Of a stretch of DNA of 64,000 bases, positions 1,625 to 45,062 are shown piece by piece (the first letter of the stretch is position 1; each line of letters starts with the position of its first letter). Source of the stretch: Kaistia adipata DSM 17808 (GTDB lineage: Bacteria > Pseudomonadota > Alphaproteobacteria > Rhizobiales > Kaistiaceae); the NCBI RefSeq assembly GCF_000423225.1, contig NZ_AUHO01000010.1, positions 372,001 to 436,000 on the forward strand, given 5' to 3'. A program made the position numbers and the translations under genes. The notes under the pieces are model-generated. The model was not told the DNA's origin, did no database searches, and saw nothing but the letters and a program-made list of their open reading frames with translations.

Positions 1625-1658
1625 CCCAACAAATCATCCGTCAGCCCCCGTCGAGCTC

Positions 1659-2480: not shown

Positions 2481-2483
2481 GCC

Positions 2484-2984: not shown

Positions 2985-3163
2985 GGAGATCTCGCTTTGA
3001 TCGGGGCGACTGCTTTTAGCGCGGCGACCTCGGCCGTGTCGATGCGGCGCCGATGCGCATGGGGTGGCGGCGTGTCGCGGCTGGGAACTTCCTGCAATCG
3101 GTCGTTGCTTCTGCCGCGAGCCTGATTATAGTCGCGCCGTCGCGGGCCTCGGACCCGCGCGTT

Positions 3164-25395: not shown

Positions 25396-26081
25396 TGGCC
25401 CATCTCCCGCGACCAGTTGATGGCGTTGACATAGATGCCGAGCGGATTGGCCTTGAGGCGTTCGGCGTCGCGGGGCGGCTGAAGCGCGATGGTCAGGATG
25501 GCGGTCCAGCGCTCGGTCGTGGCGAGCTTACCGTCCTCGTAGCGCCGTTCGGTCCAGGCCACGCGGAACGAATCCGGCGAGGCACGGATGACGCTGGAGA
25601 CCTCGACGGCGATCTGCTGCCTGCCGACCTTGGCGAAGGGATCGTTGGCGCGGGCATAGTCGTTGAGCGCGCCAGCGCCGCGATCGGTCGTCCACTCGTA
25701 GGCGCGAAGCCAGTTCTGCCGCACGATAACCGGATCGGCTGGAATGGAGCGGACCTGCTCGATGAAGCGGGCCAGGTGCCATGCGATCTGCGGATCGGTC
25801 GGCCGATAGTCGGCTGTCGCCGGAGCCACCGCCTGCGAGTGGCCGAGATTGTCGACCTGCACCACCCAGGGCACCACGGTCCCGCGCGCCGACTGGATGA
25901 CCAGCGCGCCGGCGAAGCCGGCGGAGAGGAACAGCGAGCCGAAGGCCATATAGCGCCAGTTCTTCGCCTGCACGCGGGCCGAGCCGATCCGCTCGTCCCA
26001 GACCTGCGCGGCGCGCTGATAGGGCGTCCCGGGCTGCGGCGTCTTGCCGTAATGCGCGGCGGGTCGTCTGAAGAGGTTCAT
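25392..26081 (-). CDS. trbF: Conjugal transfer protein TrbF (VirB8-like)
   Basis: The 229-residue bitopic inner-membrane assembly factor has a membrane helix at about 46-64 (MAFGSLFLSAGFAGALVIQS) and a periplasmic NTF2-like VirB8 domain with ERWTAILTIALQPP and the C-terminal NPLGIYVNAINWSREMG. Length and order are normal for the trb operon. Confidence 0.93.
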   Translation of the reverse strand: MNLFRRPAAHYGKTPQPGTPYQRAAQVWDERIGSARVQAKNWRYMAFGSLFLSAGFAGALVIQSARGTVVPWVVQVDNLGHSQAVAPATADYRPTDPQIAWHLARFIEQVRSIPADPVIVRQNWLRAYEWTTDRGAGALNDYARANDPFAKVGRQQIAVEVSSVIRASPDSFRVAWTERRYEDGKLATTERWTAILTIALQPPRDAERLKANPLGIYVNAINWSREMGQ

Positions 26082-27433
26082 GAGCGGTCACTTTCTGAGA
26101 GGTTGACGGAGGAGCCGGAGGCGTGGCTCTCGCCGGAGCGGACGGCGTGGGCGGTCGCCTGAACGCCGTGGGTCACGCGCTGCGAACGCTGCATTCGCTT
26201 CGCCCAATCGGGCTGGCCCTTGGCGGTGTGGGTGGCGGAAGCGGCGGCGGCTGCTGCATCGGCGGAACCGCCGACCGTACCCATGGTCGAAGACCCGCCG
26301 GTCGCGCCGAAGCCGCTCTTCACGCCATCGGAGAAGCTGGATTTGACGCTGGCCGAGGCGCGGCGCAGCGGCGACATGGCGGCGGAGCCTGCCGCGCGTG
26401 CGATGCCGCCGATGCCGGAAGCGGCACCCGCTGCGCCGGACTGGCCGAGCGAACCAAGGCTGAAGGCGGCGGATGCCGCGCCAGCGGCCGTTGCCCCGCC
26501 GCGCACGGCGGCGGCTCCGCCCGACAGCATTGCGGCTCCACCGCGCGCAGCGAGCATCGCGCCACCGCCCGCGGCCATGGTTGCGCCGGCGGCAGCGAGA
26601 CCCGTGCCGACGGCAGCGCCAGCGCCGAGCTGCGGGCCGCCGCTGACCAGGCCGGAAGCGATACCGGGGCCGAAGATGCCGAGGCCAAGGAGAGACAGGG
26701 CAGCGAGCACGACGGCCATGGCGTCGTCGATGCTCGGGGTTACGCCTCCGAACCCCTGCGTGAACTGGCTGAACAGGGTCGAGCCGATGCCGATGATGAC
26801 GGCAAGCACCAGAACCTTGATGCCGCTGGAAATCACATTGCCGAGCACCCGTTCGGCCATGAAGGCGGTTTTTCCGAAGAGGCCAAACGGGATCAGGACA
26901 AAGCCGGCGAGCGTCGTCAGCTTGAATTCGATCAGGGTGACGAAGAGCTGGATGGCCAGAATGAAGAAGGCGAGGATCACCAGCGCCCAGGCGAAGAGCA
27001 GGCACGCGATCTGGATGAAGTTCTCGAAGAAGGCGACCCAGCCCATCAGATCGGAAATGGATTCGAGCAGCGGCCGTCCGGCATCGAGGCCGGTCTGTGC
27101 GACTTTGCCGGGGCGCATCAGGTCTGCGGCCGAAAAGCCTGTGCCGGAGCCCTTGAGGCCGAGACCCGCAAAACTCTCGAAGACGATTTTTGCGAGATTG
27201 TTCCAATTGCCGATGAGATAGGCGAAGACGCCTACGAACAGCGTCTTTTTCACGAGGCGAGCGATGATGTCGTCATCCGCGCCCCAGCTCCAGAAGAGTG
27301 CGGCTAACGTCACGTCGATCACGATCAGCGTGGTGGCGATGAACGCGACCTCGCCGGACAGGAACCCGAAACCGGAGTCGATGTAGCGGGTGAAGACCCC
27401 AAGAAACGAGTCGATGACGCTCGCGCCGCCCAT
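26078..27433 (-). CDS. trbL: Conjugal transfer protein TrbL (VirB6-like)
   Basis: This 451-residue polytopic inner-membrane component of the mating channel has about six hydrophobic segments between residues 25 and 265. They are followed by a long low-complexity Ala/Gly/Ser-rich tail, from about 265 to 445, with runs such as AAAVRGGATAAGAASAA. Such tails are common in TrbL. It overlaps trbF by 4 bp. Confidence 0.92.
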   Translation of the reverse strand: MGGASVIDSFLGVFTRYIDSGFGFLSGEVAFIATTLIVIDVTLAALFWSWGADDDIIARLVKKTLFVGVFAYLIGNWNNLAKIVFESFAGLGLKGSGTGFSAADLMRPGKVAQTGLDAGRPLLESISDLMGWVAFFENFIQIACLLFAWALVILAFFILAIQLFVTLIEFKLTTLAGFVLIPFGLFGKTAFMAERVLGNVISSGIKVLVLAVIIGIGSTLFSQFTQGFGGVTPSIDDAMAVVLAALSLLGLGIFGPGIASGLVSGGPQLGAGAAVGTGLAAAGATMAAGGGAMLAARGGAAMLSGGAAAVRGGATAAGAASAAFSLGSLGQSGAAGAASGIGGIARAAGSAAMSPLRRASASVKSSFSDGVKSGFGATGGSSTMGTVGGSADAAAAAASATHTAKGQPDWAKRMQRSQRVTHGVQATAHAVRSGESHASGSSVNLSESDRS

Positions 27434-27436
27434 GGT

Positions 27437-27715
27437 TTACCGTCCTTCCGGAGCGGCCGGAGCCGGCTGACGACCGAGGAAGCGGTCGCGTGTCTCGGCC
27501 CAGACGCGCAGGCAATCGGTGTCGTCCAATGCCTTTTGTCCGAGCTGTTGGCAGCGGCGTTGGCCTTCGCGCAGCGGGTCGGTGTCGGTTTTTAGAATCC
27601 GCACCGGCGAAGATGCTGGCGCATCCTCCTTGCGGTCCAGCTCGATCACCGTCGCCGTGATGGCGACGGCGACGAAGGCGATTGCGCCGAGGCGTGCCAG
27701 CATCTTGCCGTCCAT
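27437..27715 (-). CDS. Putative entry exclusion protein TrbK-alt
   Basis: The 92-residue protein has one N-terminal membrane helix (LGAIAFVAVAITATVIEL) and a short periplasmic domain with two Cys (RRCQQLG and TDCLRVW). Its position between trbL and trbJ is that of the TrbK-alt family, which is proposed to block redundant transfer between cells carrying the same element. That function is inferred from family and position. Confidence 0.82.
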   Translation of the reverse strand: MDGKMLARLGAIAFVAVAITATVIELDRKEDAPASSPVRILKTDTDPLREGQRRCQQLGQKALDDTDCLRVWAETRDRFLGRQPAPAAPEGR

Positions 27716-27734
27716 GACGATGCTCCCTTCCAGC

Positions 27735-28502
27735 TTAGTTGCGGTTGAACATCTGCGCGTTGCCGGGCTGGTAGCCCGAGCCTGGCGTCAGGAACCGGCG
27801 ACGCTGCTCGCGGCCCTGTTCGGCGGCGGCGGCGCGTTCCGCATCGGTCAGCGCGCTTGCCCGGCCATTGGCCGAGATGACCGCGACGAGATCGGAAAGC
27901 TGCTGCGATTGCAGAGCGAGAAGCTGGTTGCCGGCCTGCGTCGCCTGCAATGCGCCGGTCGCGGACTGGCTCTGGCCGACTAGCGCCGACATCTGGCCAC
28001 GGTTCGCGTCGATATTGCCGACGACGCCGGCCTGCACGCGCATAGCGTCCTGCAAGCCTCCGACCGTGTTCTGCCAGCGGTCGCGGGCATTGGCGACGAG
28101 CTGCTGATCGGTCGTCGACAGCGAGACATTGCCGTATTGCTGCTGGAAGCTCTGATCGATCTGCTGGACGTCGAAGGCGATGTTCTGTGCTTGGCCGAGA
28201 AGCTGTTGGGTCTTCTGGGCGTTCTGCTGCAAGGTCTGAAGCGCCGAATACGGCAGGCTGGCGAGGTTCTTCGCCTGGTTGATGAGCATCTGTGCTTCGT
28301 TCTGAAGCGAGGTGATCTGGTGATTGATCTGCTCCAGCGTGCGCGCGGCGGTCAGCACGTTTTGCGCATAGTTGGAGGGGTCATAGACGATCTTCCACGC
28401 ATGGGCGGGCGTGGTCATGATCGGCGTGAGCACGAGCGGCGCGGCGGCAAGCATGGTTGCGGCGAGCGCCACGGCGCGCGAGCGGAAACGGCGAATGGTC
28501 AT
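27735..28502 (-). CDS. trbJ: Conjugal transfer protein TrbJ (VirB5-like)
   Basis: The 255-residue secreted pilus-tip/adhesin-type subunit has a cleavable signal peptide ending AHA before WKIVYDPSNYAQN. The mature protein is mostly helical and Gln-rich (QQIDQSFQQQYGN), as in TrbJ. The start at 28502 overlaps the trbE stop by 4 bp. A longer in-frame extension upstream is antisense-free read-through of the trbE region and is rejected. Confidence 0.91.
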   Translation of the reverse strand: MTIRRFRSRAVALAATMLAAAPLVLTPIMTTPAHAWKIVYDPSNYAQNVLTAARTLEQINHQITSLQNEAQMLINQAKNLASLPYSALQTLQQNAQKTQQLLGQAQNIAFDVQQIDQSFQQQYGNVSLSTTDQQLVANARDRWQNTVGGLQDAMRVQAGVVGNIDANRGQMSALVGQSQSATGALQATQAGNQLLALQSQQLSDLVAVISANGRASALTDAERAAAAEQGREQRRRFLTPGSGYQPGNAQMFNRN

Positions 28503-30943
28503 GGTCGGGACTCCTTTTCGGCTTGGGGGAAGTTCGGGATGAGATCGACGGCCCAGGTCACGTCGCGGGCGGTGAGCCACGCGGCGAGGAAACCGTCGCG
28601 GCCGTGCTCGGCGACGAGGTTGGCGATCAGGGTCTGGTCGGATTTCGAGGAGGCGGCGCAGAGCGCGAGGCCGACTTCGGACAGGCCTAGCTCGAACAGG
28701 CGGTTGCCGCGCCGGGACTGGCAGTAGTAATCCCGCTTGGGCGTCGCCCGCGCCAGGATCTCGATCTGACGATCGTTGAGGCCGAAGCGGCGATAGATCG
28801 CTGTGATCTGCGGCTCGATCGCGCGCTCGTTCGGCAGGAGGAGCCGCGTCGGGCAGCTTTCGATGATGGCCGGCGCGATGCTCGAATTGTCGATGTCGGA
28901 CAGGCTTTGCGTGGCGAAGATGACCGATGCGTTTTTCTTGCGCAGCGTCTTCAGCCATTCGCGAAGCTGGCCGGCGAACCCTTCGTCGTCCAGCGCAAGC
29001 CAACCTTCGTCGATGATGAGCAGCGTCGGCCGCCCGTCCAACCTGTCGCCGATGCGGTGGAACAGGTAGGACAGGACGGCCGGAGCCGCGCCCGTTCCGA
29101 CAAGCCCCTCGATCTCGAACGCCTGCACGGCAGCGCGGCCGAGCTGTTCAGCTTCGGCATCGAGCAGCCGGCCATAGGCCCCACCAACGCAATACGGGCG
29201 GAGCGCCTGCTTCAAGTCGTTGGACTGGAGAAGGACACTGAGGCCGGTGATGGTCCGCTCTTCGACCGGCGCGGAAGCGAGTGAGGTCAGCGCCGTCCAG
29301 ATATGCTCCTTGGCCTCAGGCGTGATCGTGATGCCTTCGCGCATCAGGATCGCCACGATCCAGTCGGCCGCCCAGGCCCGCTCGTAGGTGTCGTGAATGC
29401 GCGCGAGCGGCTGGAGCGCGACGGAGAACTCGTCGCCCTCGGTCAACCCGCCGCCGAGATCGTGCCAGTCGCCGCCCATGGCGAGCGCGGCGGCCCGGAT
29501 CGATCCGCCAAAGTCGAAGGCGAAGACCTGGGCTTGCTCGTAGCGTTGGAACTGCAAGGCCATCAGCGCGAGCAGCACGGATTTGCCCGCGCCGGTCGGG
29601 CCGACGACCAGCGTATGGCCGACGTCGCCGACATGAAGAGACAACCGGAACGGGGTCGAGCCTTCGGTCTTGCCATACAGCAAGGGGGGCGCACCGAAAT
29701 GCTCATCCCGTTCCGGCCCCGCCCACACGGCAGAGAGGGGGATCATGTGGGCGAGATTGAGCGTCGAGACCGGCGGCTGACGGACATTGGCGTAGGCATG
29801 TCCGGGGAGCGAGCCGAGCCAGGCATCGACGGCATTGACGGTTTCGATCATGGCCGTGAAATCGCGGCCCTGAACGACCTTCTCGACGAGGCGCAGCTTC
29901 TCGTCGGCAAGACGCGGATCGGCGTCCCACACCACGATCGTGGCCGTGACATAGGCCATGCCCGCGACGTCCTGACCGAGTTCCTGCAAGGCAAGATCGG
30001 CATCGGCCGCCTTGTTGGCCGCGTCCGTATCCACGAGGGCGGACGCCTCGTTGGTCATCACCTCCTTCAAAATGGCGGCGATCGACTTGCGCTTGGCGAA
30101 CCACTGGCGGCGGATTTTGGTCAACAGCTTGGTCGCGTCGGTCTTGTCGAGCAGGATCGCGCGGGTGGACCACCGATACGGGAACGCCAAGCGGTTGAGA
30201 TCGTCGAGCAGGCCGGGCGTCGTCGCGGTCGGAAAGCCGATGATGGTGAGGACGCGCAGATGCTGGTCGCCAAGGCGCGGCTCCAGCCCGCCGGTCAGCG
30301 GCTGGCCGGCGAGCAGCGCATCGAGATAGACCGGCGTTTCCGGCACACGAACGCGATGCCGGTTGGTCGAGACGGTCGAATGCAGATAGGTCAGCGTCTC
30401 GCCGTCATCGAGCCAGTCGCATTCGGGCATGAAGCCGTCGAGCAGCGCCAGCACGCGGTCGGTGCGATCGGTGAAGGCGCGCAGGATCTCATGCGGATCG
30501 ACGCCGCTGCGCTCGCGGCCCTCGTAGAGCCAGGTCTCGGCGCGGGCGGCTTCCTCGGCCGGTGGCAGATAGAGGAAGGTCAGATAATAGCCCGACACGA
30601 AATGCGCGCCGGCTTCCTCGAAATCCGCTTTCCTCTCGGCATCGACCAGACCGGAGGCCGGATCGGGGAAGTGGTTGTCGGGATAGGTCGCGGCTTCGGA
30701 GCGCTGTGCTTCCACGAAGATCGACCAGCCTGAGCCGAGCCGGCGGAAGGCGTTGTTGATGCGGCTGGCGACGGCGACCAGCTCGGCGGCGACAGCAGAA
30801 TCGAGATCGGGACCACGAAACGATGCGGTGCGCTGGAATGAGCCATCCTTGTTGAGCACGACGCCCGGCGCGACCAGCGCGACCCAGGGCAGATAGTCGG
30901 CAAGGCGCGAAGCCGAGCGGCGATATTCGGCGAGGTTCATCAT
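28499..30943 (-). CDS. trbE: Conjugal transfer ATPase TrbE (VirB4-like)
   Basis: The roughly 814-residue ATPase energises pilus assembly and substrate transfer at the inner membrane. It has an N-terminal CagE/VirB4 domain and a C-terminal motor with Walker A GPTGAGKS near residue 450 and a Walker B-type segment LLIIDEGWLAL. Start ATGs at 30943 and 30940 follow a GGGAGG ribosome-binding site. Upstream in-frame residues to 31021 belong to trbD sequence and are excluded. Confidence 0.94.
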   Translation of the reverse strand: MMNLAEYRRSASRLADYLPWVALVAPGVVLNKDGSFQRTASFRGPDLDSAVAAELVAVASRINNAFRRLGSGWSIFVEAQRSEAATYPDNHFPDPASGLVDAERKADFEEAGAHFVSGYYLTFLYLPPAEEAARAETWLYEGRERSGVDPHEILRAFTDRTDRVLALLDGFMPECDWLDDGETLTYLHSTVSTNRHRVRVPETPVYLDALLAGQPLTGGLEPRLGDQHLRVLTIIGFPTATTPGLLDDLNRLAFPYRWSTRAILLDKTDATKLLTKIRRQWFAKRKSIAAILKEVMTNEASALVDTDAANKAADADLALQELGQDVAGMAYVTATIVVWDADPRLADEKLRLVEKVVQGRDFTAMIETVNAVDAWLGSLPGHAYANVRQPPVSTLNLAHMIPLSAVWAGPERDEHFGAPPLLYGKTEGSTPFRLSLHVGDVGHTLVVGPTGAGKSVLLALMALQFQRYEQAQVFAFDFGGSIRAAALAMGGDWHDLGGGLTEGDEFSVALQPLARIHDTYERAWAADWIVAILMREGITITPEAKEHIWTALTSLASAPVEERTITGLSVLLQSNDLKQALRPYCVGGAYGRLLDAEAEQLGRAAVQAFEIEGLVGTGAAPAVLSYLFHRIGDRLDGRPTLLIIDEGWLALDDEGFAGQLREWLKTLRKKNASVIFATQSLSDIDNSSIAPAIIESCPTRLLLPNERAIEPQITAIYRRFGLNDRQIEILARATPKRDYYCQSRRGNRLFELGLSEVGLALCAASSKSDQTLIANLVAEHGRDGFLAAWLTARDVTWAVDLIPNFPQAEKESRP

Positions 30944-30956
30944 GGTTGCGCCTCCC

Positions 30957-31235
30957 TCAGACCGCGAGGAAAGCCGGAATGCGCAGATGCCTGCGCCCGA
31001 CCTCGACGAAGAGCGGATCACGCTTGGCGGCCCAGACCGCCGCGAAATGCCCGACGGCCCAGATGAGTAGGCCGACCAGCCAGAGACGCAGGCCGAGGCC
31101 CACGGCCCCGGCCAGCGTCCCGTTGAGGATCGCGATGGAACGCGGTGCGCCGCCGAGCAGGATGTGCTCGGTCAGCGCCCGGTGGACCGGCACGGTGAAG
31201 CCCGGCACGTCCAGTTGCTCGAACGCGCCCGCCAT
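30957..31235 (-). CDS. trbD: Conjugal transfer protein TrbD (VirB3-like)
   Basis: The 92-residue small inner-membrane protein has two adjacent hydrophobic segments (SIAILNGTLAGAVGLGLRLW and LVGLLIWAVGHFAAVWAAKR) and the family start FEQLDVPGFTVPVHRALTEH. It works with TrbE in the mating pore. Its start shares one base with the trbC stop (TGATG), indicating tight coupling. Confidence 0.92.
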   Translation of the reverse strand: MAGAFEQLDVPGFTVPVHRALTEHILLGGAPRSIAILNGTLAGAVGLGLRLWLVGLLIWAVGHFAAVWAAKRDPLFVEVGRRHLRIPAFLAV

Positions 31236-31603
31236 CAGACCAGCGCCCCGCCGCCGAACGAGAAGAACGACAGGAAGAAGCTCGACGCCGCGAAGGCGAT
31301 CGACAGGCCGAACACGATCTGGATCAGGCGGCGGAAGCCGCCCGACGTGTCACCGAAGGCGAGCGCCAGGCCGGTGGCGATGATGATGATGACCGCGACG
31401 ATCTTGGCGACCGGGCCTTCGATCGACTGGAGGATTTTCTGGAGCGGTTCTTCCCACGGCATGGAGGAGCCGGAGGCATAGGCGGGCGGCGTGGCCGCCA
31501 TCACAATGATGGTGACAAGCGCGGTCGAGGCTGCGAGGCGATCATAGGCACCGCGCAGGACCGAGGGTTTCGACGGCTTGGACAAGTTGATCGGTGGCTT
31601 CAT
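31235..31603 (-). CDS. trbC: Pilin TrbC (VirB2-like)
   Basis: The 122-residue prepilin has a signal segment (STALVTIIVMAATPPAYASG), then two membrane helices (VAKIVAVIIIIATGLALAFG and IQIVFGLSIAFAASSFFLSF). It would be processed to the main subunit of the conjugative pilus. The start at 31603 overlaps trbB by 4 bp. Confidence 0.92.
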   Translation of the reverse strand: MKPPINLSKPSKPSVLRGAYDRLAASTALVTIIVMAATPPAYASGSSMPWEEPLQKILQSIEGPVAKIVAVIIIIATGLALAFGDTSGGFRRLIQIVFGLSIAFAASSFFLSFFSFGGGALV

Positions 31604-32595
31604 GCGGGGTCTCCTGTGCTGGTGGGGATGGCCAAAGGGATGGTTTGGGTGACGCGGTAGTCCCCGTCCGGGCCGAGCCCTTCGACGCGGGCGAGCTCGG
31701 CGAGCCGGCGCGCGGAGCCTCGGCCGGAGAGGACGGCAACAAGGTCGATGGTCTCGGCGATCAGGGCGCGCGGGACCGTGACGACGGCTTCCTGAATGAG
31801 CTGTTCGAGGCGGCGCAGCGCGCCGATGCTTGTTCCGGCGTGGATCGTGCCGATGCCGCCGGGATGGCCCGTGCCCCATGCTTTGAGGAGGTCGAGCGCT
31901 TCCGCGCCGCGAACCTCGCCGATGGGGATGCGGTCGGGACGCAGGCGCAGGGATGAGCGGACGAGATCGGAGAGCGTGACGACACCCTCCTTTGTCCGCA
32001 TGGAGACGAGGTTGGGCGCCGCACATTGCAGCTCGCGGGTGTCCTCGATGATGACGACGCGATCCTGCATCTTCGCCACCTCGGCCAGCAGCGCATTGGT
32101 CAGCGTGGTCTTGCCGGTGCTGGTGCCGCCCGCGACGAGGATGTTGGCGCGCGCCGCCACGGCTTCGCGCAGGGTCGCGGCCTGCTCAACGCTCATGATC
32201 CCGGCGGCCACATAGTCATCGAGGCTGAACACCGCCACGGCCGGCTTCCGGATGGCGAAGGCGGGTGCGGCGACGACAGGCGGTAGCAAACCCTCGAACC
32301 GTTCACCCGACTCGGGCAATTCGGCCGAGACGCGCGGGGATCGGGCGTGAACCTCCGCGCCGACATGGTGGGCAACCAGGCGCACGATGCGCTCGCCATC
32401 GGCAGGCGACAGGATTTCGCCCGTGTCGGACAGTCCCTCGGAAAGTCGGTCAATCCAGATGCGGCCATCCGGGTTGAGCATCACTTCGACGACGGACGGC
32501 TCCTCCAGAAACCGCGAAATCGCCGGACCCAGCGCCGTGCGCAGCATCCGCGCGCCGCGTGCGATGGCTTCCGGTTTTTGATGGCTGGCAGTCAT
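31600..32595 (-). CDS. trbB: Conjugal transfer ATPase TrbB (VirB11-like)
   Basis: The 331-residue hexameric traffic ATPase has an N-terminal domain to about 140 and a RecA-like domain with Walker A GGTSTGKT at 156-163, an Asp box ([12 protein letters not shown]) and a Walker B/His-box region ([20 protein letters not shown], then TGHPGG). It is the first gene of the trb operon. The 187-bp spacer upstream should carry the operon promoter. Confidence 0.94.
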
Positions 32596-32627
32596 ATCGG
32601 CCCCGTTTGTTCACGAGGCGCGACAGA

Positions 32628-32647
32628 CGATCCCCGGATCGGGGTCG
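32628..32647. promoter_or_regulatory. Dyad in the trbB leader region
   Basis: ATCCCCG and CGGGGT face each other across GAT within 32628-32647, about 35 bp before the trbB start. It could be an operator or leader hairpin for the trb operon, or the 3' hairpin of the copG transcript. Nothing else was recognised in 32596-32782. Confidence 0.35.
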
Positions 32648-32782
32648 ATTAAAAGAGCCTGAAATCGGGCCGGTTCAACAAGTATCGGTCGTAGTAGTAG
32701 CGTGGCGTGCAAATACAGGAGAACGGCGGTGGAGCCCTGATCTTGATGTCGTTACGGCCTCACCAGATGACGCGCGAGATCG

Positions 32783-33211
32783 TCACGCCTCGGTGTCGGA
32801 GACGTCTTCAGGGATCTCCTGTCGCAGCTTCGGCCCTTTGACGAGGCGCCGGCCGAGCGCGGTGATGAACGCCTCATACCGCTCGGCCGACTTGGCGCGC
32901 GCTGCCTGCGCAGCAGGCTCCGGCAAGGCCGGCGTGGTCGTGATCCAGAAGCGGATGAACACCGCCAGGGTCTCGACGGCGATGCCGACGTCCCGCTCCA
33001 GGCGGCTCATGCGGCGATCGATCTGGTCGAGGCGCTTGGCGACGACGGCCTCGCGCCGCTCGGCATCGTCCGGCGACAGGAAGGATGCGATGGCGGCCTC
33101 GGCGATCATGGACTGCGATTGATCCCGGCGAGCGGCGAAATCCGCCAGCGCCCGCGTCACGTCGGGGTCCAGATAGACCGTGAACTTCGACTTTTTCCGA
33201 TACCTGGCCAT
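32783..33211 (-). CDS. CopG-type ribbon-helix-helix protein
   Basis: The 142-residue protein starts with a ribbon-helix-helix DNA-binding unit (KSKFTVYLDPDVTRALADFA, then ARRDQSQSMIAEAAI). A charged helix (RLDQIDRRMSRLERDVGIAV) that could form a coiled coil follows. CopG-like proteins between traG and trbB are a fixed part of this ICE backbone and probably regulate transfer genes. It lies 5 bp after traG. Confidence 0.85.
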   Translation of the reverse strand: MARYRKKSKFTVYLDPDVTRALADFAARRDQSQSMIAEAAIASFLSPDDAERREAVVAKRLDQIDRRMSRLERDVGIAVETLAVFIRFWITTTPALPEPAAQAARAKSAERYEAFITALGRRLVKGPKLRQEIPEDVSDTEA

Positions 33212-33216
33212 GGCGC

Positions 33217-35202
33217 TTACAGTTCCATGCCGTCATCGGGGTCGAGCGACACCTGGCGCGCGACACCCTGCATCTGACTGATCATCCGCCGATTGCGCAT
33301 GGCATCTTCGTCGCTCTCGTCTGGAAGCTCGATCTCGAACTCGTTGGCGATGGGTTCCTTCTTTTCCGTCGGCTTCGCGCGGCTGAGTTCGGGTTGCAGC
33401 CGGCGTTCGGAATCGGTGGTGTCTTCCTCTTCCGATCCGTCCGCGGGCCGCGCGTCCAGCGCCTCCGGCCTCGCCGGGATCGGCAGGCTGCTCCAGTCGT
33501 CGGGCCGAGGCTTGTCGGGGCGTTTCAGTTGAGGCGGCGACAGCAGGCGCTCGCGGAAACGGGCATCCTCGTAGTAGCGCGCCTTCTTCGCGCGGATCGG
33601 CGGCGTGCCGGCGACCATGACGATTTCGTCGCTCGGCGGGAGTTGCATGATCTCGCCGGGCGTCAGCAACTGGCGGGCGGTTTCCGAGCGCGAGACCATC
33701 AGATGGCCGAGCCAGGGCGAGAGCCGATGCCCGGCATAGTTCTTCATCGCCTTCATTTCGGTGGCGGTGCCGAGCGCATCGGACACGCGCTTGGCGGTGC
33801 GCTCGTCGTTCGTGGCGAAGCTGACCCTGACATGGCAGTTGTCGAGGATGGAGTTGTTCGGGCCGTATGCCTTTTCGATCTGGTTCAGCGATTGCGCGAT
33901 CAGGAAGGCTTTGAGGCCGTAGCCCGCCATGAAGGCCAGCGCGCTCTCGAAGAAGTCGAGCCGCCCCAGCGCCGGAAACTCGTCGAGCATGAGGAGCAGC
34001 CGGTGACGATCGCCCTTCGCCTGCAGGTCTTCGGTCAGGCGGCGGCCGATCTGGTTGAGGATTAGACGGATCAGCGGCTTGGTGCGATTGATGTCGGATG
34101 GGGGCACGACGAGGTAGAGCGTGGTCGGGAGCTTGTCGCCCACTATGTCGGCGATCCGCCAGTCGCAGCGCCGCGTCACCTCGGCCACGACGGGATCGCG
34201 ATAGAGGCCGAGAAACGACATGGCGGTGGAGAGCACGCCGGAGCGTTCATTGTCGGATTTGTTGAGCAACTCGCGCGCGGCGCTGGCGATGACGGGGTGC
34301 GGTCCCGCTTCACCGAGATGGCTGGTCGTCATCATCGCGGCAAGCGTCGACTCGATCGGGCGCTTCGGATCGGAGAGGAAAGCAGCGACGCCGGCGAGTG
34401 TCTTGTCGTTCCCGGCATAGAGGACATGCAGGATCGCGCCGACAAGAAGGGAATGGCTCGTCTTCTCCCAGTGGTTTCTTTTGTCCAGGCTCCCTTCGGG
34501 GTCGACCAATATGTCGGCGATGTTCTGCACGTCGCGCACTTCCCACTCGCCGCGGCGCACCTCGAGCAAGGGATTATAGGCCGAGGATTTCGGATTGGTC
34601 GGATCGAAGAGCAGCACGCGGCCGTGGTGGGCGCGGAAGCCGGCGGTCAGCGTCCAGTTCTCGCCCTTGATGTCGTGGACGATGGCCGAGCCCGGCCAGG
34701 TCAACAATGATGGCACGACAAGGCCAACGCCCTTGCCCGATCGCGTCGGCGCGAAGCACAGCACATGCTCCGGTCCGTCATGGCGCAGATAGTCGCGGTC
34801 GTAGCGGCCAAGAACGACACCATCGGGATCGAGCAGCCCGGCGGCCTTCACCTCTTCCTTCTCGGCCCAGCGCGCCGACCCATAGGTGGCGACGTCCTTG
34901 GCTTCGCGCGCCCGCCAGACCGACATGCCGATGGCGACGGCGATGGCGATGAAACCGCCGGACGCGGCGATGAACGCGCCCTGGGTGAATATCTCCGGCG
35001 CATAGGCATCGTAGGAGAACCACCACCAGAAGAAGGCGGGCGGATGGTAGAACGGCCAGCCGAACAGGACGAACCATGGCGGCCCGAGCTGCGCCTGAAA
35101 CCCGAGCTTCCAGGCGACATACTCGGTCGCGCCCCAGGTGGTGGAGAAAACGATGAGGAAGACGATCAGAATCTGTCCCCAGAGGATTTTGGTCGCGGAC
35201 AT
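33217..35202 (-). CDS. traG: Type IV coupling protein TraG/VirD4
   Basis: The 661-residue inner-membrane ATPase recruits the relaxase-DNA complex to the mating pore. N-terminal membrane helices are at about 10-30 and 75-95. Walker A APTRSGKG is at 151-158 and Walker B is LLLMLDEFPALG. The C-terminus is acidic. It lies 24 bp after the relaxase gene, the usual order. Confidence 0.94.
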   Translation of the reverse strand: MSATKILWGQILIVFLIVFSTTWGATEYVAWKLGFQAQLGPPWFVLFGWPFYHPPAFFWWWFSYDAYAPEIFTQGAFIAASGGFIAIAVAIGMSVWRAREAKDVATYGSARWAEKEEVKAAGLLDPDGVVLGRYDRDYLRHDGPEHVLCFAPTRSGKGVGLVVPSLLTWPGSAIVHDIKGENWTLTAGFRAHHGRVLLFDPTNPKSSAYNPLLEVRRGEWEVRDVQNIADILVDPEGSLDKRNHWEKTSHSLLVGAILHVLYAGNDKTLAGVAAFLSDPKRPIESTLAAMMTTSHLGEAGPHPVIASAARELLNKSDNERSGVLSTAMSFLGLYRDPVVAEVTRRCDWRIADIVGDKLPTTLYLVVPPSDINRTKPLIRLILNQIGRRLTEDLQAKGDRHRLLLMLDEFPALGRLDFFESALAFMAGYGLKAFLIAQSLNQIEKAYGPNNSILDNCHVRVSFATNDERTAKRVSDALGTATEMKAMKNYAGHRLSPWLGHLMVSRSETARQLLTPGEIMQLPPSDEIVMVAGTPPIRAKKARYYEDARFRERLLSPPQLKRPDKPRPDDWSSLPIPARPEALDARPADGSEEEDTTDSERRLQPELSRAKPTEKKEPIANEFEIELPDESDEDAMRNRRMISQMQGVARQVSLDPDDGMEL

Positions 35203-35226: not shown

Positions 35227-36966
35227 CTAGAGGCCGAGCCCGCGCTTGCGGCCGAAATCCCAATCGACGCCGCCGCCGTCGCGGGCGACGCCCGAGACAT
35301 GGCGGCCGAGCTGCTTGTCGAGGGATGGCGACCAGGGCACGAGCTGGAAGCCGAGGCCGTCGTCGATCATGGCGAAGCGGCCGGAGGCGAGCGTCAGGCG
35401 CTGGCGGTAGGTGCCGGCGACATATTCCCCGCTCTCGGCCGGTTTGAACGGCTGGCCGGTCTCCTTCGCGAGCCTTCCGGCCACGGCATCGACTTCACGG
35501 CGGCGGAGCGTGTCGATCAGGTTGCGGTTGAAGATGATGCGGCGGCCTTGCTGCTCGGCCAATCCTTCACCGACGAGATGCTCCGCGCGTTGCCGCATCG
35601 CGTCCCGCACTTCGGCGCCGAAGCCGCCGTCCGACATGGCGACGGGTTCTCGGGCGATGGATTGCCGGTCGAGCCAGGTCGCGCCGGTGGCGCTCACCTG
35701 ATGCTGGAGATCGAGATCGGAGCGGACGGCGAGCGCGACACGGCGATCGCCTTTCGCGTCCTCGTATGCGCGCAGCTCGACGATCGATCCCGGTGGGCTG
35801 TCGCCTGTGGCGTCGAGATGCGGCAGCCGGATGTGATGGGTGCGGCCGTCCACGCCGTCGACCACGGCGTAGGCCGTTCCCTTCAGCTCGTCGTCAAGGC
35901 CGCGCTCGACCAGGCGGCCGATGACGGGGACATCGAGGCTCTCGCCGGCGAGGACATAGCTGGCCGAGCCGCGCTCGATCCCGCGTTCGGTGAGCGCCCG
36001 GTGCATCCGCTTGATGATGTCGCCGCGCTCGCCGAGTTTGCGAAGCGTGGCTTCGGCCTCGGCCTTGATGAACCATTGCTGGTGTCCGACCTGTCCGGCG
36101 AGCCCACGGATTTCGAGGGTGCGCAGCCTGCCGACCTTCAGCGCATGAAACTCGTCCGGCTGCTGGCCGGGCTGCGGCGCGAGGTCGATGATGCCCGACC
36201 TGCCGGCGTCGCGGACAAGCTGCCGGTCGAGCTGCGTCCAGCGTTCGGCCTCGACCTGCCGCTCCAGATTGCGGTTGATCTCCAGATCGCTGCGCTGACC
36301 GAGCTCCTGGGTGACGAGATCCTGCGCGCGGGCGCGCATTCCCTCCTTGATGTAGTCGCGGGAGATCACGAGATCCTGGCCGTCGTCGGTACGGCCACGC
36401 AGGATGATATGGATATGGGGATTGTCGGTGTTCCAGTGATCGACGCCGACCCAATCGAGCTTCGTGCCGAGATCCTTTTCCACCTGGCCCATCAGCTCGC
36501 GGGCGTGGTCCTTGAGGTCGGCCATATCCACGGCGTCCTCCGGCGAGACGATGAAGCGGAAGTGATGCCGGTCGTCCTCGCAGCGCGCCGCGAAATCGCG
36601 GGCATCCACGTTGTCGCTTTCAGGACCGAACAGCCGCGCCTTCTCCCCGTCTCGGGTCACGCCGTCGCGGCGCAGATATGACAGGTGTGCGCCGAGCGGC
36701 GCGGCGCGCGCGCCATGGCGCACCACGCGGGTCTTGATGACCACGATGCGCGAGCGGCCGGTGAGCAGCCGATTGGCCTGAATGCTGGCGCGCTGGCCGC
36801 GCCCGAAGCGCGAGCGGTTGCCCGTCGTGATCTTGCCGGAACGGGAGACGCGGCCCCCGGCCTTCTGCGCGGCGGCGAGCGCCTGCGCAATGAAAGGCCG
36901 CGCCTGCTGTGCGCGGGTCGATCGGATACGCCCAGGCCGGACGCGAATATCGCTGTCATCGGCCAT
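35227..36966 (-). CDS. Relaxase (VirD2-like, DUF3363)
   Basis: The 579-residue protein would nick at oriT and lead the strand into the recipient. The metal-binding three-His motif is HWNTDNPHIHIIL at about 177-189. A candidate catalytic Tyr is in HLSYLRRDG (Tyr97). The C-terminal half is the DUF3363 region (SGEYVAGTYRQRLTLASGRF). It belongs to the RlxS/MOBP-like group of alphaproteobacterial ICEs. It is expressed away from the 243-bp spacer that contains the likely oriT. Confidence 0.92.
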   Translation of the reverse strand: MADDSDIRVRPGRIRSTRAQQARPFIAQALAAAQKAGGRVSRSGKITTGNRSRFGRGQRASIQANRLLTGRSRIVVIKTRVVRHGARAAPLGAHLSYLRRDGVTRDGEKARLFGPESDNVDARDFAARCEDDRHHFRFIVSPEDAVDMADLKDHARELMGQVEKDLGTKLDWVGVDHWNTDNPHIHIILRGRTDDGQDLVISRDYIKEGMRARAQDLVTQELGQRSDLEINRNLERQVEAERWTQLDRQLVRDAGRSGIIDLAPQPGQQPDEFHALKVGRLRTLEIRGLAGQVGHQQWFIKAEAEATLRKLGERGDIIKRMHRALTERGIERGSASYVLAGESLDVPVIGRLVERGLDDELKGTAYAVVDGVDGRTHHIRLPHLDATGDSPPGSIVELRAYEDAKGDRRVALAVRSDLDLQHQVSATGATWLDRQSIAREPVAMSDGGFGAEVRDAMRQRAEHLVGEGLAEQQGRRIIFNRNLIDTLRRREVDAVAGRLAKETGQPFKPAESGEYVAGTYRQRLTLASGRFAMIDDGLGFQLVPWSPSLDKQLGRHVSGVARDGGGVDWDFGRKRGLGL

Positions 36967-39473: not shown

Positions 39474-39721
39474 TCGGGGTCTCCTGGGTTCGGGGGAAAT
39501 TCGCGCGTGAGCAGCTCGCGCAGCATGTCGGCGACGGTGACGCCGCGCCCGAAAGCCGCGATCTTGATCCGGCCGCGCAGCTCCGGCGTCACGTCGATGG
39601 TGAGCCGCGCCGTGTAGGCGGTCGCCTCGGATGCGCGCGGCGAGCTCTCGGCCGTCTTGATCCATTGCTCGGGATCGGCGGGGCGCTTGGCGAAGCCGCG
39701 CTTCTCGACGCGGGCCGTCAT
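39470..39721 (-). CDS. ParG-like ribbon-helix-helix partition protein
   Basis: The 83-residue protein has a basic, flexible N-terminus and a C-terminal ribbon-helix-helix unit (TARLTIDVTPELRGRIKIAA, then FGRGVTVADMLRELLT). It directly follows parA with a 4-bp overlap, as a centromere-binding ParG/ParB-like partner would. The assignment rests on fold-like pattern and position. Confidence 0.7.
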   Translation of the reverse strand: MTARVEKRGFAKRPADPEQWIKTAESSPRASEATAYTARLTIDVTPELRGRIKIAAFGRGVTVADMLRELLTREFPPNPGDPE

Positions 39722-40374
39722 GACGCGGCTCCGTTGCCGATGCGCAGCCGCCCGATCTCAGATGCGAGTGCAACGATCTCGCGGGCGGCGGGCGAACGGC
39801 TGTCGATTTCCGAGGCGAGCCGCCCGGACTGCGCGGCGTCGGCGAAGACGATGCGCTGACCGATGGTCGCGGCGAGCACCGGCGGATCGTGATCGGCCAG
39901 CGTCTCGGCGGTCTCGCGCGCGATGACGGTGCGCGCGGCGCAGCGATTGAGAACGAAGCGGGCGACGAGCTGCGGCCGGTAGATGCGCGCTTCCGACAGG
40001 AGCGAAAGCATTTCGGCTGAAGCCCAGCCGTCGAGCGGCGAAGGCTGCACCGGGATCAGCACGAGGTCGGCGGCGAGCAATGCCGACCGCATGAGGCCGG
40101 CGACGCGCGGCGGGCCGTCGATGACGATGTGATCGACATCGCGCGCCAGCTCGGGCGCTTCGCGGTGGAGCGTATCGCGCGCCAGGCCGACGACGCCGAA
40201 TGCGCGCGGCAGGCCCTCCCGGCTGCGCTGCTCGGACCAGTCGAGTGCCGAACCCTGTGGGTCCGCGTCGATCAGCGTGACACGGCGGCCAGGCCCGGCG
40301 AGTTCACCGGCGAGATGGAGCGCGAGCGTCGTCTTCCCGACGCCGCCTTTCTGATTGAGAAGCGCGACGATCAT
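39718..40374 (-). CDS. parA: Partition ATPase ParA
   Basis: The 218-residue Walker-type ParA/MinD ATPase has the deviant Walker A KGGVGKTTL at 9-17, a second-half Asp motif (HIVIDGPPR) and the switch region LIDADPQGSALDW. It probably stabilises the excised ICE circle with the adjacent small DNA-binding protein. It overlaps the repA 3' end by 4 bp. Confidence 0.9.
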   Translation of the reverse strand: MIVALLNQKGGVGKTTLALHLAGELAGPGRRVTLIDADPQGSALDWSEQRSREGLPRAFGVVGLARDTLHREAPELARDVDHIVIDGPPRVAGLMRSALLAADLVLIPVQPSPLDGWASAEMLSLLSEARIYRPQLVARFVLNRCAARTVIARETAETLADHDPPVLAATIGQRIVFADAAQSGRLASEIDSRSPAAREIVALASEIGRLRIGNGAAS

Positions 40375-40526: not shown

Positions 40527-40655
40527 TTCTTGGTTAGCCGGGGTACTGACTGGTGCCCGCTGGTCAGCGTTTCGGCTGTGGCGATGATGCCTTCGTGAAG
40601 CGATCGTGGAAGACGGTGCGCGGTGCTCCGTCGGGATCGGCGACGGAGGTGAACC

Positions 40656-41702
40656 ATGGAGTTCTATGCGGGACTGGACGTGTCGCTGGAAGCGACGAGT
40701 GTTTGCGTGGTGAATGGCGAGGGCAAGGTCGTCCGGGAAGGAAAACTGCCGTCCGACCCGGATGCGATCGAGCTGTTCCTGGCCGAATGGGGCATCCATC
40801 TCAAGCGGGTCGGGCTGGAAGCCTTCTCGTTCAGCGCCTGGCTGTATGCCGCCCTCGATGAAAAGGGGCTGCCGATCGTCTGCATCGAGACCCGCCACAC
40901 CAAGGCGGCGCTCAACGCCATGCTGAACAAGACCGACAGGAACGATGCGCGAGGCATCGCGCAGTTGATGCGCACCGGCTGGTTCCGGCCCGTCCACGTC
41001 AAGTCGCGCGAGGCGCAGGCGCTGCGGATGCTGCTTGCCGGCCGCAAGGCGCTGCTCGGCAAGGTGCTCGACATGGAGAACATGATCCGCGGCCTGATCC
41101 GGCCGTTCGGCCTGAAGGTCGGTCCGGTCTCCATCGGCAAGTTCGACGGGCGCGTGCGCGAACTGGTCGCCGGCCTTGCCGAGCTGGAGCAGATCGTCGA
41201 GCCGCTGCTGGCCGCGCGCGCGGCGATGCGCTTGCAGTTCGCTCGCATGCACCGATTGGCGCTGGCGGCTGCGCGCCAAGACAAGGCGGTGCGCCGGATG
41301 ATGACGGTGCCCGGCGTCGGCGCCATCGTGGCGCTGACCTTTCGCGCCACCGTCGACGATCCGGCCCGGTTCAGGAAATCCGTGACCATCGGCGCCCACT
41401 TCGGGCTGACGCCTCGACGCTACCAGTCCGGCGAGACCGACTGGTCGGGGCGCATCTCCAAATGCGGGGACGCGATGACGCGGGCCATGCTCTACGAGGC
41501 GGCGATCGCGATCCTCACGCGCATCCCGAAGACCTTCAAGCTCAGGCTCTGGGGGCTGAAGCTCATGAAGAAGAAGGGGCTGAAGAAGGCTGCGACCGCC
41601 GTGGCGCGGGCGTTGGCCGTGCTCCTGCACAAGATCTGGGTCGATGGTTCGACCTTCCGATATGGCGTCGGCCTGAAGGGCGGCCGGATCGCTCGCGCAT
41701 GA
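40656..41702 (+). CDS. IS110-family transposase
   Basis: The 348-residue DEDD transposase has an N-terminal RuvC-like catalytic domain (YAGLDVSLEATSVCV, NKTDRNDARGIAQLMRTGWF) and a C-terminal Transposase_20 domain (MTVPGVGAIVALTF, GAHFGLTPRRYQSGETDWSG, CGDAMTRAMLYEAA) that carries the conserved Ser region. The start has a GGAGGTGAACC ribosome-binding site. The gene appears intact and the element may still move. Confidence 0.92.
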   Translation: MEFYAGLDVSLEATSVCVVNGEGKVVREGKLPSDPDAIELFLAEWGIHLKRVGLEAFSFSAWLYAALDEKGLPIVCIETRHTKAALNAMLNKTDRNDARGIAQLMRTGWFRPVHVKSREAQALRMLLAGRKALLGKVLDMENMIRGLIRPFGLKVGPVSIGKFDGRVRELVAGLAELEQIVEPLLAARAAMRLQFARMHRLALAAARQDKAVRRMMTVPGVGAIVALTFRATVDDPARFRKSVTIGAHFGLTPRRYQSGETDWSGRISKCGDAMTRAMLYEAAIAILTRIPKTFKLRLWGLKLMKKKGLKKAATAVARALAVLLHKIWVDGSTFRYGVGLKGGRIARA

Positions 41703-42129
41703 TGGCAGCGTAAGCGATCCGGCCGCGCCCTTCCGGCGCGTCACCAGGTTCCGCCACGGCGGAGCGGCGTCTCCCGGGGAGACGGGGACACGGGCGAGAT
41801 CGAAACTTGAGTTGCCGGCAACCTTCGGGCGAAACCGCACGGCGCTTGTTAGCCTGACCGCCTGGTCTCCAGATCCCGGAATGTGGCGGACACCATGCCG
41901 ACCACGGACGTTAGCGAGTGCTCCTCGGAGAGACATGAGCCGCACCTCAGCGTGACGATGATGGAAGGGAACGGCCGCAGCGGCGGCAGACGGCGGCGTT
42001 CGCGCGTCCTGGAGGGCGCTCGCCGATGTCGTGTTCGGTAAAAGCGGCTTTACGGATCAGTCTGTCGGTGACAGATTGAAGTGGAGAGGCGTTGTCTCCA
42101 CAGCCCACTGACTCACAACAACAAGTTAG
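41703..42129 (+). ncRNA. Candidate bridge/seek RNA region of the IS110-family element
   Basis: About 430 bp lie between the transposase stop and the right subterminal repeat without a sense gene. In IS1111-type elements the guide RNA that pairs with target and donor is encoded here. Stem-forming segments such as CTCCCGGGGAG (41770s) and GCGCCCTTCCGGCGC (41725-41740) are present. The exact RNA and its loops are not resolved by eye. Confidence 0.35.
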
Positions 42130-43110
42130 AGTCAGTACGTTAGACTCTAAGTTAAGGGCGCGAATCCGCCTGCGATTTCCAGACGTTAAGGCCGGTTTGG
42201 GTTCCTGATAGCACGAGCCTCGGGTTCCCGATGGCACGATAGTCCGGGTTCCCGATAGCACGAGCCCGTCCACAGGTTTTCCACAGGCCGGGAGCGGCTC
42301 GAAAGCGAGCAGCGTGCGCCCGCCGATCTCCACCTCCAGCGACAGGACGTAGCCGGGTAGCGGCTGGCGCCGCACGATGTCGCGCATCTCGAACGCGAAG
42401 CGTTTGAACGGCGACAGGCTGCCGGATTTGACGTGGAGATGGCGCAGATCGAAACGCCAGCCGTCGCGCTGGCGGCCGCCGTGCTTGCGCACGATGCGGT
42501 AGAGCCAGCGGTCGAGACCGCCGGTGAGATGGAAATAGGCCGGGTCGATGGTGAGGATGAGCGCGTCATCGAGGACGGCTTTGTAGAACCAGTCGGGGAC
42601 GATCAGTTCGATGCCGTCCGGCCGCCCATGGCGGTCGGTGCGCTCCTGCCATTCGTTGATCCATGAAAAGCGATGGCGGCGGCCTTCGGCCGGCTGGCGG
42701 ATCGATGTCGAGATGGTGGTCGATTGCAGCCGGTCCAGCGCCGCCTTGAGGCGCTGATAGTCGCGCAAGCTGGTGCCGCGTCCGACATAGGTGAGGATTT
42801 CATAGGGCGTCGCGGCCATCAGCCTGGACGTGCGAAGCCCGTTGTCGCGGGCTTCGACGATCTGGCTGGCGGCCCAGATCAGGATGTCGGCGTCCCAGAT
42901 CGTGGCCATGCCATGATCGGGAACGGCCTCGACGCGGATCGTGATGTCGCCGGCCGAAAAGTCGATCGGGGCCACGCGATGGGATTTGGAGAGGGAGAAG
43001 AAGGGATAGGCCATGAGATCCTGCGCATCTCGTGGCGCGAAGTCGCCGGGGAGCGCGCGAAACAGATCGAGCTGCCCACGCTCCGAAGAGTCACGACGCC
43101 GCACCACCAT
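41947..43110 (-). pseudogene. repA: Replication initiator RepA, 5' portion interrupted by the IS
   Basis: The native part (about 325 residues) is the plasmid-type initiator found in this ICE family. The core has winged-helix features: FSAGDITIRVEAVPDHGMAT, SLRDYQRLKAALDRLQSTTI and SPFKRFAFEMRDIVRRQPLP. After NLESN the frame enters the IS and adds about 60 foreign residues (VLTLTCCCESVGC and on), ending at 41947. The lost C-terminal part is at 40371-40526. The main DNA-binding region precedes the break, so residual function cannot be excluded. Confidence 0.8.
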
Positions 43111-43128: not shown

Positions 43129-43410
43129 TCAGCGCGCGTATCGGCCGGCGCTCTGGCCGGTCGGCAGCGTCTGGCGCTTGGCGGGCAGCACGGAGCCGCG
43201 CGGATCGGAGGTCGAGGTGACGGCGCCGCGCTCGGCCCAGGTTTCGAGATCGTCGACGGCATAGACGACGCGCCCGCCGAGTTTGCGGTAGGCCGGGCCG
43301 GTGCCGTAGGTCCGATGCTTTTCGAGGGTGCGGGCGGACAGGCTGAGAAACTCAGCGGCTTCCTTGGTCCGCAGGTAGCGTGGCGGGAGCGCGGCGGTAT
43401 CGGGTCGCAT
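43129..43410 (-). CDS. AlpA/Xis-type helix-turn-helix protein (RdfS-like excisionase candidate)
   Basis: The 93-residue protein has a winged helix-turn-helix of the excisionase/AlpA type (RYLRTKEAAEFLSLSARTLE, then KHRTYGTGPAYRKLGGRVVY). In ICEMlSymR7A the excisionase RdfS is a protein of this kind and is transcriptionally activated by FseA. Here it lies directly downstream of the fseA-like gene and 18 bp upstream of repA. Excisionase function is inferred from fold and context. Confidence 0.72.
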   Translation of the reverse strand: MRPDTAALPPRYLRTKEAAEFLSLSARTLEKHRTYGTGPAYRKLGGRVVYAVDDLETWAERGAVTSTSDPRGSVLPAKRQTLPTGQSAGRYAR

Positions 43411-43553: not shown

Positions 43554-44316
43554 CTAGGAGCGGCGGCGCTGGCGAAGGAGTTGCAGATAGCCCCCGTTGA
43601 TGAGGGCAAGGCCACCTTCGACGAAGGCAATGACGGCATCACGTAGCGGCGAAGTCTTCCAGGGCTCGGTGTCGACGCGCGCCGCGCCGTAGATTGCGAT
43701 GGCGATCTCGCGATAGGTGGCGCCGTTCATATGGCCGTCGGCGGCGCGCAGCTTCAGGCGAAAGCGCCGCCGCTGCTCGGCGGTCATGCGCGTGTCGCGC
43801 GGTGGCGGGCGGCCGAGCCAGATGCGCGCCATTCGCGTCAGGGCGTCGATCCGGTCGAGGACGTCGGCATCGAACGGAACCAGAGCCGCGAGCTGGTCGT
43901 CTGGAACCGTGCCGGAAAGGAGAAGCACCGGGATGTCGTGCTCGGAGACAGACGCATAGGCGCCTTCGGGAGCATTACGCCCTACGGCGAACGCGTCGGC
44001 GGATGCAGCGGAGGCAGGCGGCAGAAACTCGGGTCGGCGCGTCAGCATGAGAACGGCGCCATCGCATGAGGGCGACCACACGACATTCTGGTCCAGCGCG
44101 GACAGGCCCGGCCTGGCAGCGAAATCGCAGCCCCCAAAGCTGTTCTGCATCTTTCGGAAGCGGTACGGCCTCGGCGGCCGTATTCGCTAGACCGCTGTAG
44201 AGTTCCTGATAAGGAACGTATCGGCGAAGGCATTCCCAAGCGAGACCTTCGACCGGCAAGCTATCGAAATAGTCATATCGGCTGTCGTCCCGCCAGTCGC
44301 TTGTATCTGGCCTCAT
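43554..44316 (-). CDS. fseA: FseA excision activator, made by +1 frameshifting (DUF6499 + DUF2285)
   Basis: Two overlapping frames encode it. The first starts at 44316 (MRPDTSDWRDDSRYDYFDSL, DUF6499-like) and would stop at 43975 after 113 residues. The second carries DUF2285 (AARPGLSALDQNVVWSPSCD to the stop at 43554). They join at WGLRF: Phe65 is UUU at 44124-44122, followed by C, so slippage from UUU to UUC gives LRF-AARPG and a 253-residue fusion. This matches msi172/msi171 (FseA) of ICEMlSymR7A, where the same tRNA-Phe slip was shown. FseA activates excisionase transcription. Confidence 0.85.
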
Positions 44317-44441: not shown

Positions 44442-44702
44442 TCAGCGCTGGGACTGGCGCAGAAGGTGCCGATAACCGGTGTGCGTCATCCAGCGGGCGC
44501 GCGCGAGATGACTGTCGTGGATGCGTCGACAGCGTTCGGGCTCGTGTGCGGGATCGAGACCGAACAGGATCTGCACCGCCTCTGTCCAATCGGCGCCATC
44601 GGCATCCGCGTCAAGCAAGCGCGCGTAGAGCTTGACGTGCGCCTTGTCGTAGGCGGTCAGTTCCTGCCCTGCCGGTGCGGTATCTTCGAATGTCTCGATC
44701 AT
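44442..44702 (-). CDS. qseM: QseM-like antiactivator (DUF2285-only)
   Basis: The 86-residue protein begins MIETFEDTAPAGQELTAYDK and consists of a single small DUF2285-like domain (HVKLYARLLDADADGADWTE, HLARARWMTHTGYRHLL). In ICEMlSymR7A the equivalent protein QseM binds and blocks both TraR and FseA. Here it lies between the XRE gene and fseA on the same strand. The start at 44702 is preferred to 44735, which lacks a ribosome-binding site. Confidence 0.72.
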   Translation of the reverse strand: MIETFEDTAPAGQELTAYDKAHVKLYARLLDADADGADWTEAVQILFGLDPAHEPERCRRIHDSHLARARWMTHTGYRHLLRQSQR

Positions 44703-44795
44703 CGTGCAGGCTCGATTACTAAGCGGCTGCTGCATCTAGACCAAGTTTGATCCAAAATGGAGCGATGGCAAGCGTCGACGGGATTTGCACGCCGA

Positions 44796-45062
44796 TCAAC
44801 GCGCGCCGTTGGATGGATTGGGTTTACTTCCGCGCTCATCGACCAGCAACACTCCTTGCCCTTTATCGGTGGACAGGAGGACGATGCCGGCAGCTTCCAA
44901 GGCCCTGCGCACCTGATCGCGCGTCGTCTCGTACACATCGAGTCCGCTTTCGGATTCGAGGCGTTTGAGCGCGGTCAGCGATATGCGGGCCTTGTCAGCG
45001 AGCGTCTCCTGTGTCCAACCCAGCAACGCGCGTGCGGCCCGTGATTGTCGGGCGGTGATCAT
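44796..45062 (-). CDS. qseC: QseC-like XRE repressor
   Basis: The 88-residue protein has a Cro/CI-type helix-turn-helix (SRAARALLGWTQETLADKAR, then ISLTALKRLESESG) and a short C-terminal strand region ending near GVLLVDERG. QseC of ICEMlSymR7A is the same kind of protein and sets a bistable switch by controlling qseM and itself. A 20-bp palindrome covers its start codon, consistent with autoregulation. Confidence 0.72.
   Translation of the reverse strand: MITARQSRAARALLGWTQETLADKARISLTALKRLESESGLDVYETTRDQVRRALEAAGIVLLSTDKGQGVLLVDERGSKPNPSNGAR

Follow-up and report, generated by a model that had tools for sequence, protein, structure and literature searches.

The activator FseA of ICEMlSymR7A, in Mesorhizobium, is encoded by two overlapping frames (msi172-msi171), in which a DUF6499 part is followed by a DUF2285 part and both meet at a conserved +1 site, within an ICE that carries trb genes and a relaxase. 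At this site, tRNA-Phe is said, in a PNAS abstract of 2015, to move from UUU to UUC. The sharing of the slip site with other elements is already published, as ~61% of 4,709 curated FseA homologues, found across proteobacteria, are split at the same +1 site according to the available text of PMC10359603. More generally, UUU_Ynn is a shift-prone sequence in bacteria, Shine-Dalgarno (SD) stimulators are spaced by 3 nt for +1 and by 9-14 nt for -1 shifts, and, at the Ty3 site, CGA with its weak inosine pair is one of a small number of working substitutes for GCG (PMC5009743, available parts). Further literature cited here comprises the available parts of PMC8627217 and PMC11963761.

Here, a gene of the same kind is described in a stretch of 64,000 nucleotides from Kaistia adipata DSM 17808 (contig NZ_AUHO01000010.1, positions 372,001 to 436,000), hereafter the window. 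Like msi172-msi171, it presents a DUF6499 and then a DUF2285 part in two overlapping frames, a conserved +1 site, and a host ICE with trb genes and a relaxase. Taken as a whole, the locus is very probably best explained by an fseA activator gene that depends on a +1 frameshift, resides on an ICE and may make use of a slip signal wider than the slippery codon. It is a genuine frameshift-dependent fseA, which adds a Kaistia case to a published class and comes with three split fseA genes in one genome.

Materials and Methods

Relatives were collected by searching PF20109 at the level of the family (28 genomes), the class (385) and the phylum (398), as well as in five further families (82, 96, 199, 198 and 199 genomes), all of them overlapping sets. 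Including further stretches and 80 named loci, the total came to 414 loci, and after dropping 33 duplicates, 380 distinct DUF6499 stretches were kept; the 73 distinct named loci overlap the wider collection and should not be taken as independent of it. The codon counts exclude nine stretches that lack DUF2285, three that have it in the -1 frame and four split loci in which the Trp was not located. An earlier-stage count covered 102 split loci, with background codon use taken from the same genes and 31 same-frame genes as a contrast, whereas codon constraint was ranked over 76 conserved columns in 75 representatives of less than 70% identity, as a control for shared ancestry. The tree was built with FastTree on 354 rows, and no shuffled control was seen for it. 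The 16S tail used for anti-SD pairing is presumed to be correct.

Results

The gene lies on the minus strand, where frame 0 extends from an ATG at 44316 to a stop at 43975 (113 codons; 43975-44316), and the +1 frame contains no stop over 44150-43554 (198 codons). Joining both ORFs through a +1 shift at CGA-UUU-C (44127-44121) gives a product of 253 aa that reads WGLRF-AARPG across the join. The preliminary description had given these coordinates, frames and join exactly as the sequence and the ORF list have them, and its reading of an fseA-type gene in need of a +1 shift at UUU-C is supported by the domains, the selection and the relatives presented below. The N-terminal part in frame 0 covers the complete PF20109 (DUF6499) profile (1-60 of 60, E 2.4e-17), with the AWEFLRRN-like motif of DUF6499 present as AWECLRRY, and after codon 65 this frame is an off-frame tail. 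The +1 frame used after the shift (43554-44121) encodes a middle domain and a C-terminal DUF2285/RovC_DNA-bd domain (PF10074; 1-107 of 107, E 2.6e-34). The codons that lead to the join are TGG (44136-44134), GGG (44133-44131), CTG (44130-44128), CGA (44127-44125) and TTT (44124-44122), followed by C (44121), and the conserved UUU-Y of FseA is found as TTT-C (44124-44121). The end of TGG and the GGG codon form an SD-like GGGGG (44131-44135), upstream of CGA by 3 nt and of UUU by 6 nt. The in-frame stop codon typical of prfB is absent from the shift site, the codon after UUU being CGC. A four-letter reading of TTTC as F was rejected, as it also takes two further in-frame TTTC and leads to a wrong protein.

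The alignment of DUF6499/DUF2285 loci, named in the preliminary description as a check on UUU-C, yielded TTT as codon 5 of WGLRF in 297 of the 317 split loci with a located Trp, together with TGT (14), AGT (3), CGT, ACC and TGG (1 each), and not a single TTC. As TTT makes up 22 of the 187 Phe codons in 12 genes of the element (and CGA 16 of the 520 Arg codons), its occurrence at the join is more than chance. The following base was C in 297 and T in 20 of these loci, the Gly codon was GGG in 252 (GGC 31, GGT 21, GGA 8, AGG 3, CCC 1, GAC 1), and codon 4 was CGA in 186, which is thus not universal. Among the named loci, which are close to the window gene, CGA TTT was present in all 73 distinct split genes and GGG in 68. 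The earlier-stage count gave TTT for 89 of 89 Phe, CGA for 44 of 54 Arg, GGG for 78 of 100 Gly and TTG for 53 of 83 Leu codons at the site, against background uses of 25%, 8.8%, 16.5% and 11.7%, respectively, and against 1/4, 0/11, 5/29 and 8/29 at the same place of the 31 same-frame genes.

In the ranking that controls for shared ancestry, the four most constrained columns were codons 4, 5, 3 and 2 of WGLRF (2.40, 1.59, 1.15 and 1.09 bits), that is, those directly before the shift (GGG UUG CGA UUU), with CGA in 35/40, TTT in 71/71, TTG in 33/57 and GGG in 56/74 of the representatives carrying the respective residue. A Ser column (AGC) ranked fifth with 0.99 bits, close to the 1.09 of Gly, followed by 0.37 for the sixth and a median of 0.09. 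The W-G-L segment would pair with the anti-SD at a mean of -8.8 kcal/mol (-8.4 for the window's own site), compared to -6.1 for synonymous versions (50 replicate means from -6.55 to -5.68) and -5.7 for the 31 same-frame genes. No signal of a stable RNA structure downstream of the join was detected in 90 loci (mean z of -0.27 versus -0.15 in a control stretch). The codon constraint and the anti-SD pairing suggest a shift signal wider than UUU-C, in which the upstream SD-like GGGGG and the rare CGA before UUU would take part. An SD element at fseA was not found in the literature on FseA frameshifting, a search that was thin in subscription papers, so that the element is not claimed to be unpublished.

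A pair of separate proteins, with the DUF6499 and DUF2285 parts translated independently from their own starts and acting together with no frameshift, would be a different way to read such a locus, and the Azorhizobium pair RihF1b/RihF1a is indeed read in print as two separate genes without frameshifting (PMC9601964, available part). An ATG at 44150 in the +1 frame could serve as the second start, but it lies upstream of the shift and within the frame-0 gene. Moreover, two proteins would leave unexplained the codon choice before the join, which is the strongest constraint in the gene, and both domains are present in a single chain in the same-frame fused homologues and in the solved RovC, all of which makes this option very unlikely. 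Slippage of the transcript rather than of the ribosome, as could be favoured by the GGGGG homopolymer and the UUU near the join, is less likely still; five G or three U in a row is little compared with known slippage sites, and decoding accounts better for the conserved CGA and for the pattern at codon level.

Among 13 pairs of relatives, changes are enriched at third positions in both halves of the gene, counted in the frame of the respective half, except for two very close pairs with too few changes to tell; judging from this pattern, both frames are under purifying selection. The nearest named locus is that of Kaistia defluvii JCM 18034 (96% protein identity), and the near-identical element of this species carries the same fseA split, which argues against a sequencing error. 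In the K. adipata genome, all three DUF6499 loci are split and show CGA TTT C, and PF10074 has six matches, five of them above the cut-off. A lone DUF2285 gene is found close by, on the opposite strand, in each of the two further split fseA loci (L002 and L003, on contigs C4 and C3). Of the 380 distinct stretches, 321 have DUF2285 in the +1 frame relative to DUF6499, 47 have both domains in one frame, 3 have DUF2285 in -1 and 9 lack it, although these fractions are not population estimates, as the 80 loci with flanks were chosen towards diverged, mostly split matches. A pseudogene or a sequencing error, of which an out-of-frame gene is the usual sign, would be the least credible explanation for a split shared by these 321 stretches, by K. 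defluvii and by the two other loci of the genome, with a third-position excess in both frames. On the tree, at least 14 changes between split and fused states are needed. One locus, L334, has the same motif in one continuous frame beside many split relatives. Among viral contigs, 12 stretches matched a pattern, and none was confirmed as a relative.

A more delicate question is which of the two codons before the join shifts. The preliminary description considered that exactly the tRNA-Phe slip of ICEMlSymR7A takes place, of which the conservation of the UUU-C site stands, whereas the slip itself is not certain, since the product would be unchanged if the shift occurred with CGA in the P site, a reading that several comparative facts fit. 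A CGA(U)UUC shift, one codon earlier, encodes an identical protein, so that a peptide spanning the join could leave the register hidden. In this alternative, the extended signal GGGGG-3 nt-CGA-U-UUC would act through anti-SD pairing 3 nt upstream of a P-site CGA, with its weak inosine-adenine pair, a base would be skipped and UUC would enter the A site, instead of a P-site tRNA-Phe slipping from UUU to UUC. We hold this model tentatively, with slightly less than even confidence.

The earlier codon is favoured by the 3-nt SD spacing to CGA, by the CGA codon itself and by 17 relatives with (U/A)GU in place of UUU. Measured to UUU, the SD-like run lies at 6 nt instead of the 3 nt known for +1 stimulators, so that its agreement with the prfB spacing depends on which codon shifts. 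The (U/A)GU loci fall in five clades, with 5 changes in 312 labelled rows of the FastTree tree; skipping the preceding base gives GUY (Val) in the +1 frame in 17/17, GGG is kept in 16/17 (AGG in L026, a single locus), and both frames are under selection in the pairs tested. In 14 of them (four clades) there is no UUU at the site, while L085-L087 have UUU at codon 4, where an ordinary UUU-U slip is possible. These relatives suggest, short of proof, that the P site can be occupied by CGA instead of UUU when the shift happens. In a clade formed by L366, L367, L368, L370 and L374, the join reads TGG GGG TTR CGA TGT (C/T), with TGT replacing TTT. A tRNA-Pro slip at CCU, proposed from the first eight (U/A)GU relatives, was dropped, as other loci have TGT followed by TGC or CCC. 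On the other hand, UUU is favoured by its first base, which never varies among the main group of loci, even though coding would not demand it if the shift took place earlier, and by UUU_Ynn being shift-prone in bacteria. The argument from hydrophobicity at column 5 is weakened, since R, K, L or A is found there in RovC and the fused relatives, with no hydrophobic residue preserved, so that Val is no requirement, which also speaks for UUU.

The host element is an ICE of ~108.8 kb (about 109 kb) inserted in a tRNA-Leu and extending beyond the window. Its left end corresponds to the 3′ end of tRNA-Leu(CAA) (gene 3359-3445, plus strand), of which 17 bp (3429-3445) recur 108.8 kb to the right, outside the window, at contig positions 484201-484217, where the K. 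defluvii match ends, and an integrase is located 0.8 kb inside the right end. The exact ends are probable rather than proven, since the increase in identity to K. defluvii sets in ~0.3 kb ahead of the tRNA end, and the K. defluvii DNA compared offers no match of 300 bp to the right flank. Profile searches located, on the minus strand, the conjugation genes (TrbI, CagX/TrbG, VirB8/TrbF, TrbL, TrbE, a TrbB-type ATPase and a TraG-type coupling protein; 23297-35202), a relaxase (DUF3363/MobA-VirD2 nuclease; 35227-36966) and a ParA-like ATPase (39718-40374). From ORF translations rather than family searches, the cargo seems to comprise genes for polyhydroxyalkanoate and acetate metabolism and for nitrate reductase, along with an efflux system. 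The trb genes, the relaxase, the tRNA-Leu repeat with an integrase near the far end and this non-symbiosis cargo agree with the earlier proposal of an ICE with different cargo.

Identity to K. defluvii is 83-86% at positions 1-3026, 99.85% at 3103-40537 and about 95-98% from 42139 onward, and this mosaic within the window, with 99.85% to the left of an IS and about 95% to its right, suggests recombination. The IS110-type insertion (40538-42138; transposase 40656-41702, plus strand) is missing from the otherwise matching K. defluvii element, and so is a second stretch of ~1.2 kb (contig 480360-481516, or 108360-109516 from the window start). The IS110-type insertion sits in the 3′ part of a RepA-like (RPA) gene (41947-43110, minus strand; PF10134, E 1.1e-89), whose frame now ends inside the insertion.

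Directly downstream of fseA, an HTH_17 small protein (43129-43410, minus strand; PF12728, E 1.1e-10), kept beside fseA in the relatives compared, is a candidate rdfS-type excision factor. Next upstream, on the same strand, a lone DUF2285-like small protein (44442-44735; PF10074, E 2.4e-5, 25.3 bits, below the cut-off of 26.4) is a candidate QseM-type antiactivator, with 11 K+R and 11 D+E versus 14 and 7 in the DUF2285 domain of FseA, and further upstream lies a candidate QseC-type HTH_3 regulator (44796-45062, minus strand; PF01381, E 3.1e-5). No clear inverted hexamers of an FseA box were seen at the published place upstream of the rdfS-like gene, and one perfect inverted pair at -129 is not clearly conserved. 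No autoinducer synthase was found in the genome, in a search in which the control genomes were also silent, and no traR/traI were recognised on the element.

Discussion

The proposed pathway would start with ribosomes that initiate at 44316 and read the DUF6499 part in frame 0. Most of them would stop at 43975, leaving a product without a DNA-binding domain, and a minority would shift +1 within CGA-UUU-C to make the 253-aa activator with its DUF2285 DNA-binding domain. By analogy with FseA in ICEMlSymR7A, this activator would switch on the excision and transfer genes, and the neighbouring lone DUF2285 protein may restrain it, as QseM does. We infer both the occurrence of the shift and its low rate, and translation may limit excision on this ICE, as the preliminary description had put forward.

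Several hundred natural variants show constraint at the nucleotide level on the codons that precede UUU, so that comparative work can take the signal apart, and with the (U/A)GU relatives it can be tested directly which codon shifts; the evidence for the extended signal, like that for the (U/A)GU sites, is comparative. Annotators may also look for TGG GGG NTN CGA TTT Y in genes that are usually called as two. Among plasmid records, whose gene tables are incomplete, some present the two halves of fseA as distinct proteins, one DUF6499 and one DUF2285, and others show no feature.

With respect to FseA of ICEMlSymR7A, the present gene differs in its host, its tRNA-Leu site, a cargo of nitrate respiration and efflux genes and the lack of recognised traR/traI, and the order here is qseC-like, qseM-like, fseA and rdfS-like, all in one direction. 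It belongs to the class of split FseA homologues, for which neither an SD-like element nor the CGA codon nor a (U/A)GU variant is mentioned in the available text of PMC10359603. The site also resembles that of prfB (RF2) in its +1 shift and its upstream SD-like GG_GGG, and even in the occasional GG_AGG, which changes the residue and is present in prfB (PMC5009743, available parts) as well as in 3 of the 317 loci. Unlike prfB, there is no stop codon at the site, the spacing is 3 nt to CGA but 6 nt to UUU, and no release-factor feedback is involved. Finally, the yeast Ty3 site GCG_AGU_U, decoded as Ala-Val, belongs to a eukaryotic element with a 14-nt 3′ stimulator, and it is the (U/A)GU relatives (CGA_UGU_C and CGA_AGU_C), not the UUU site of the window, that share its layout.
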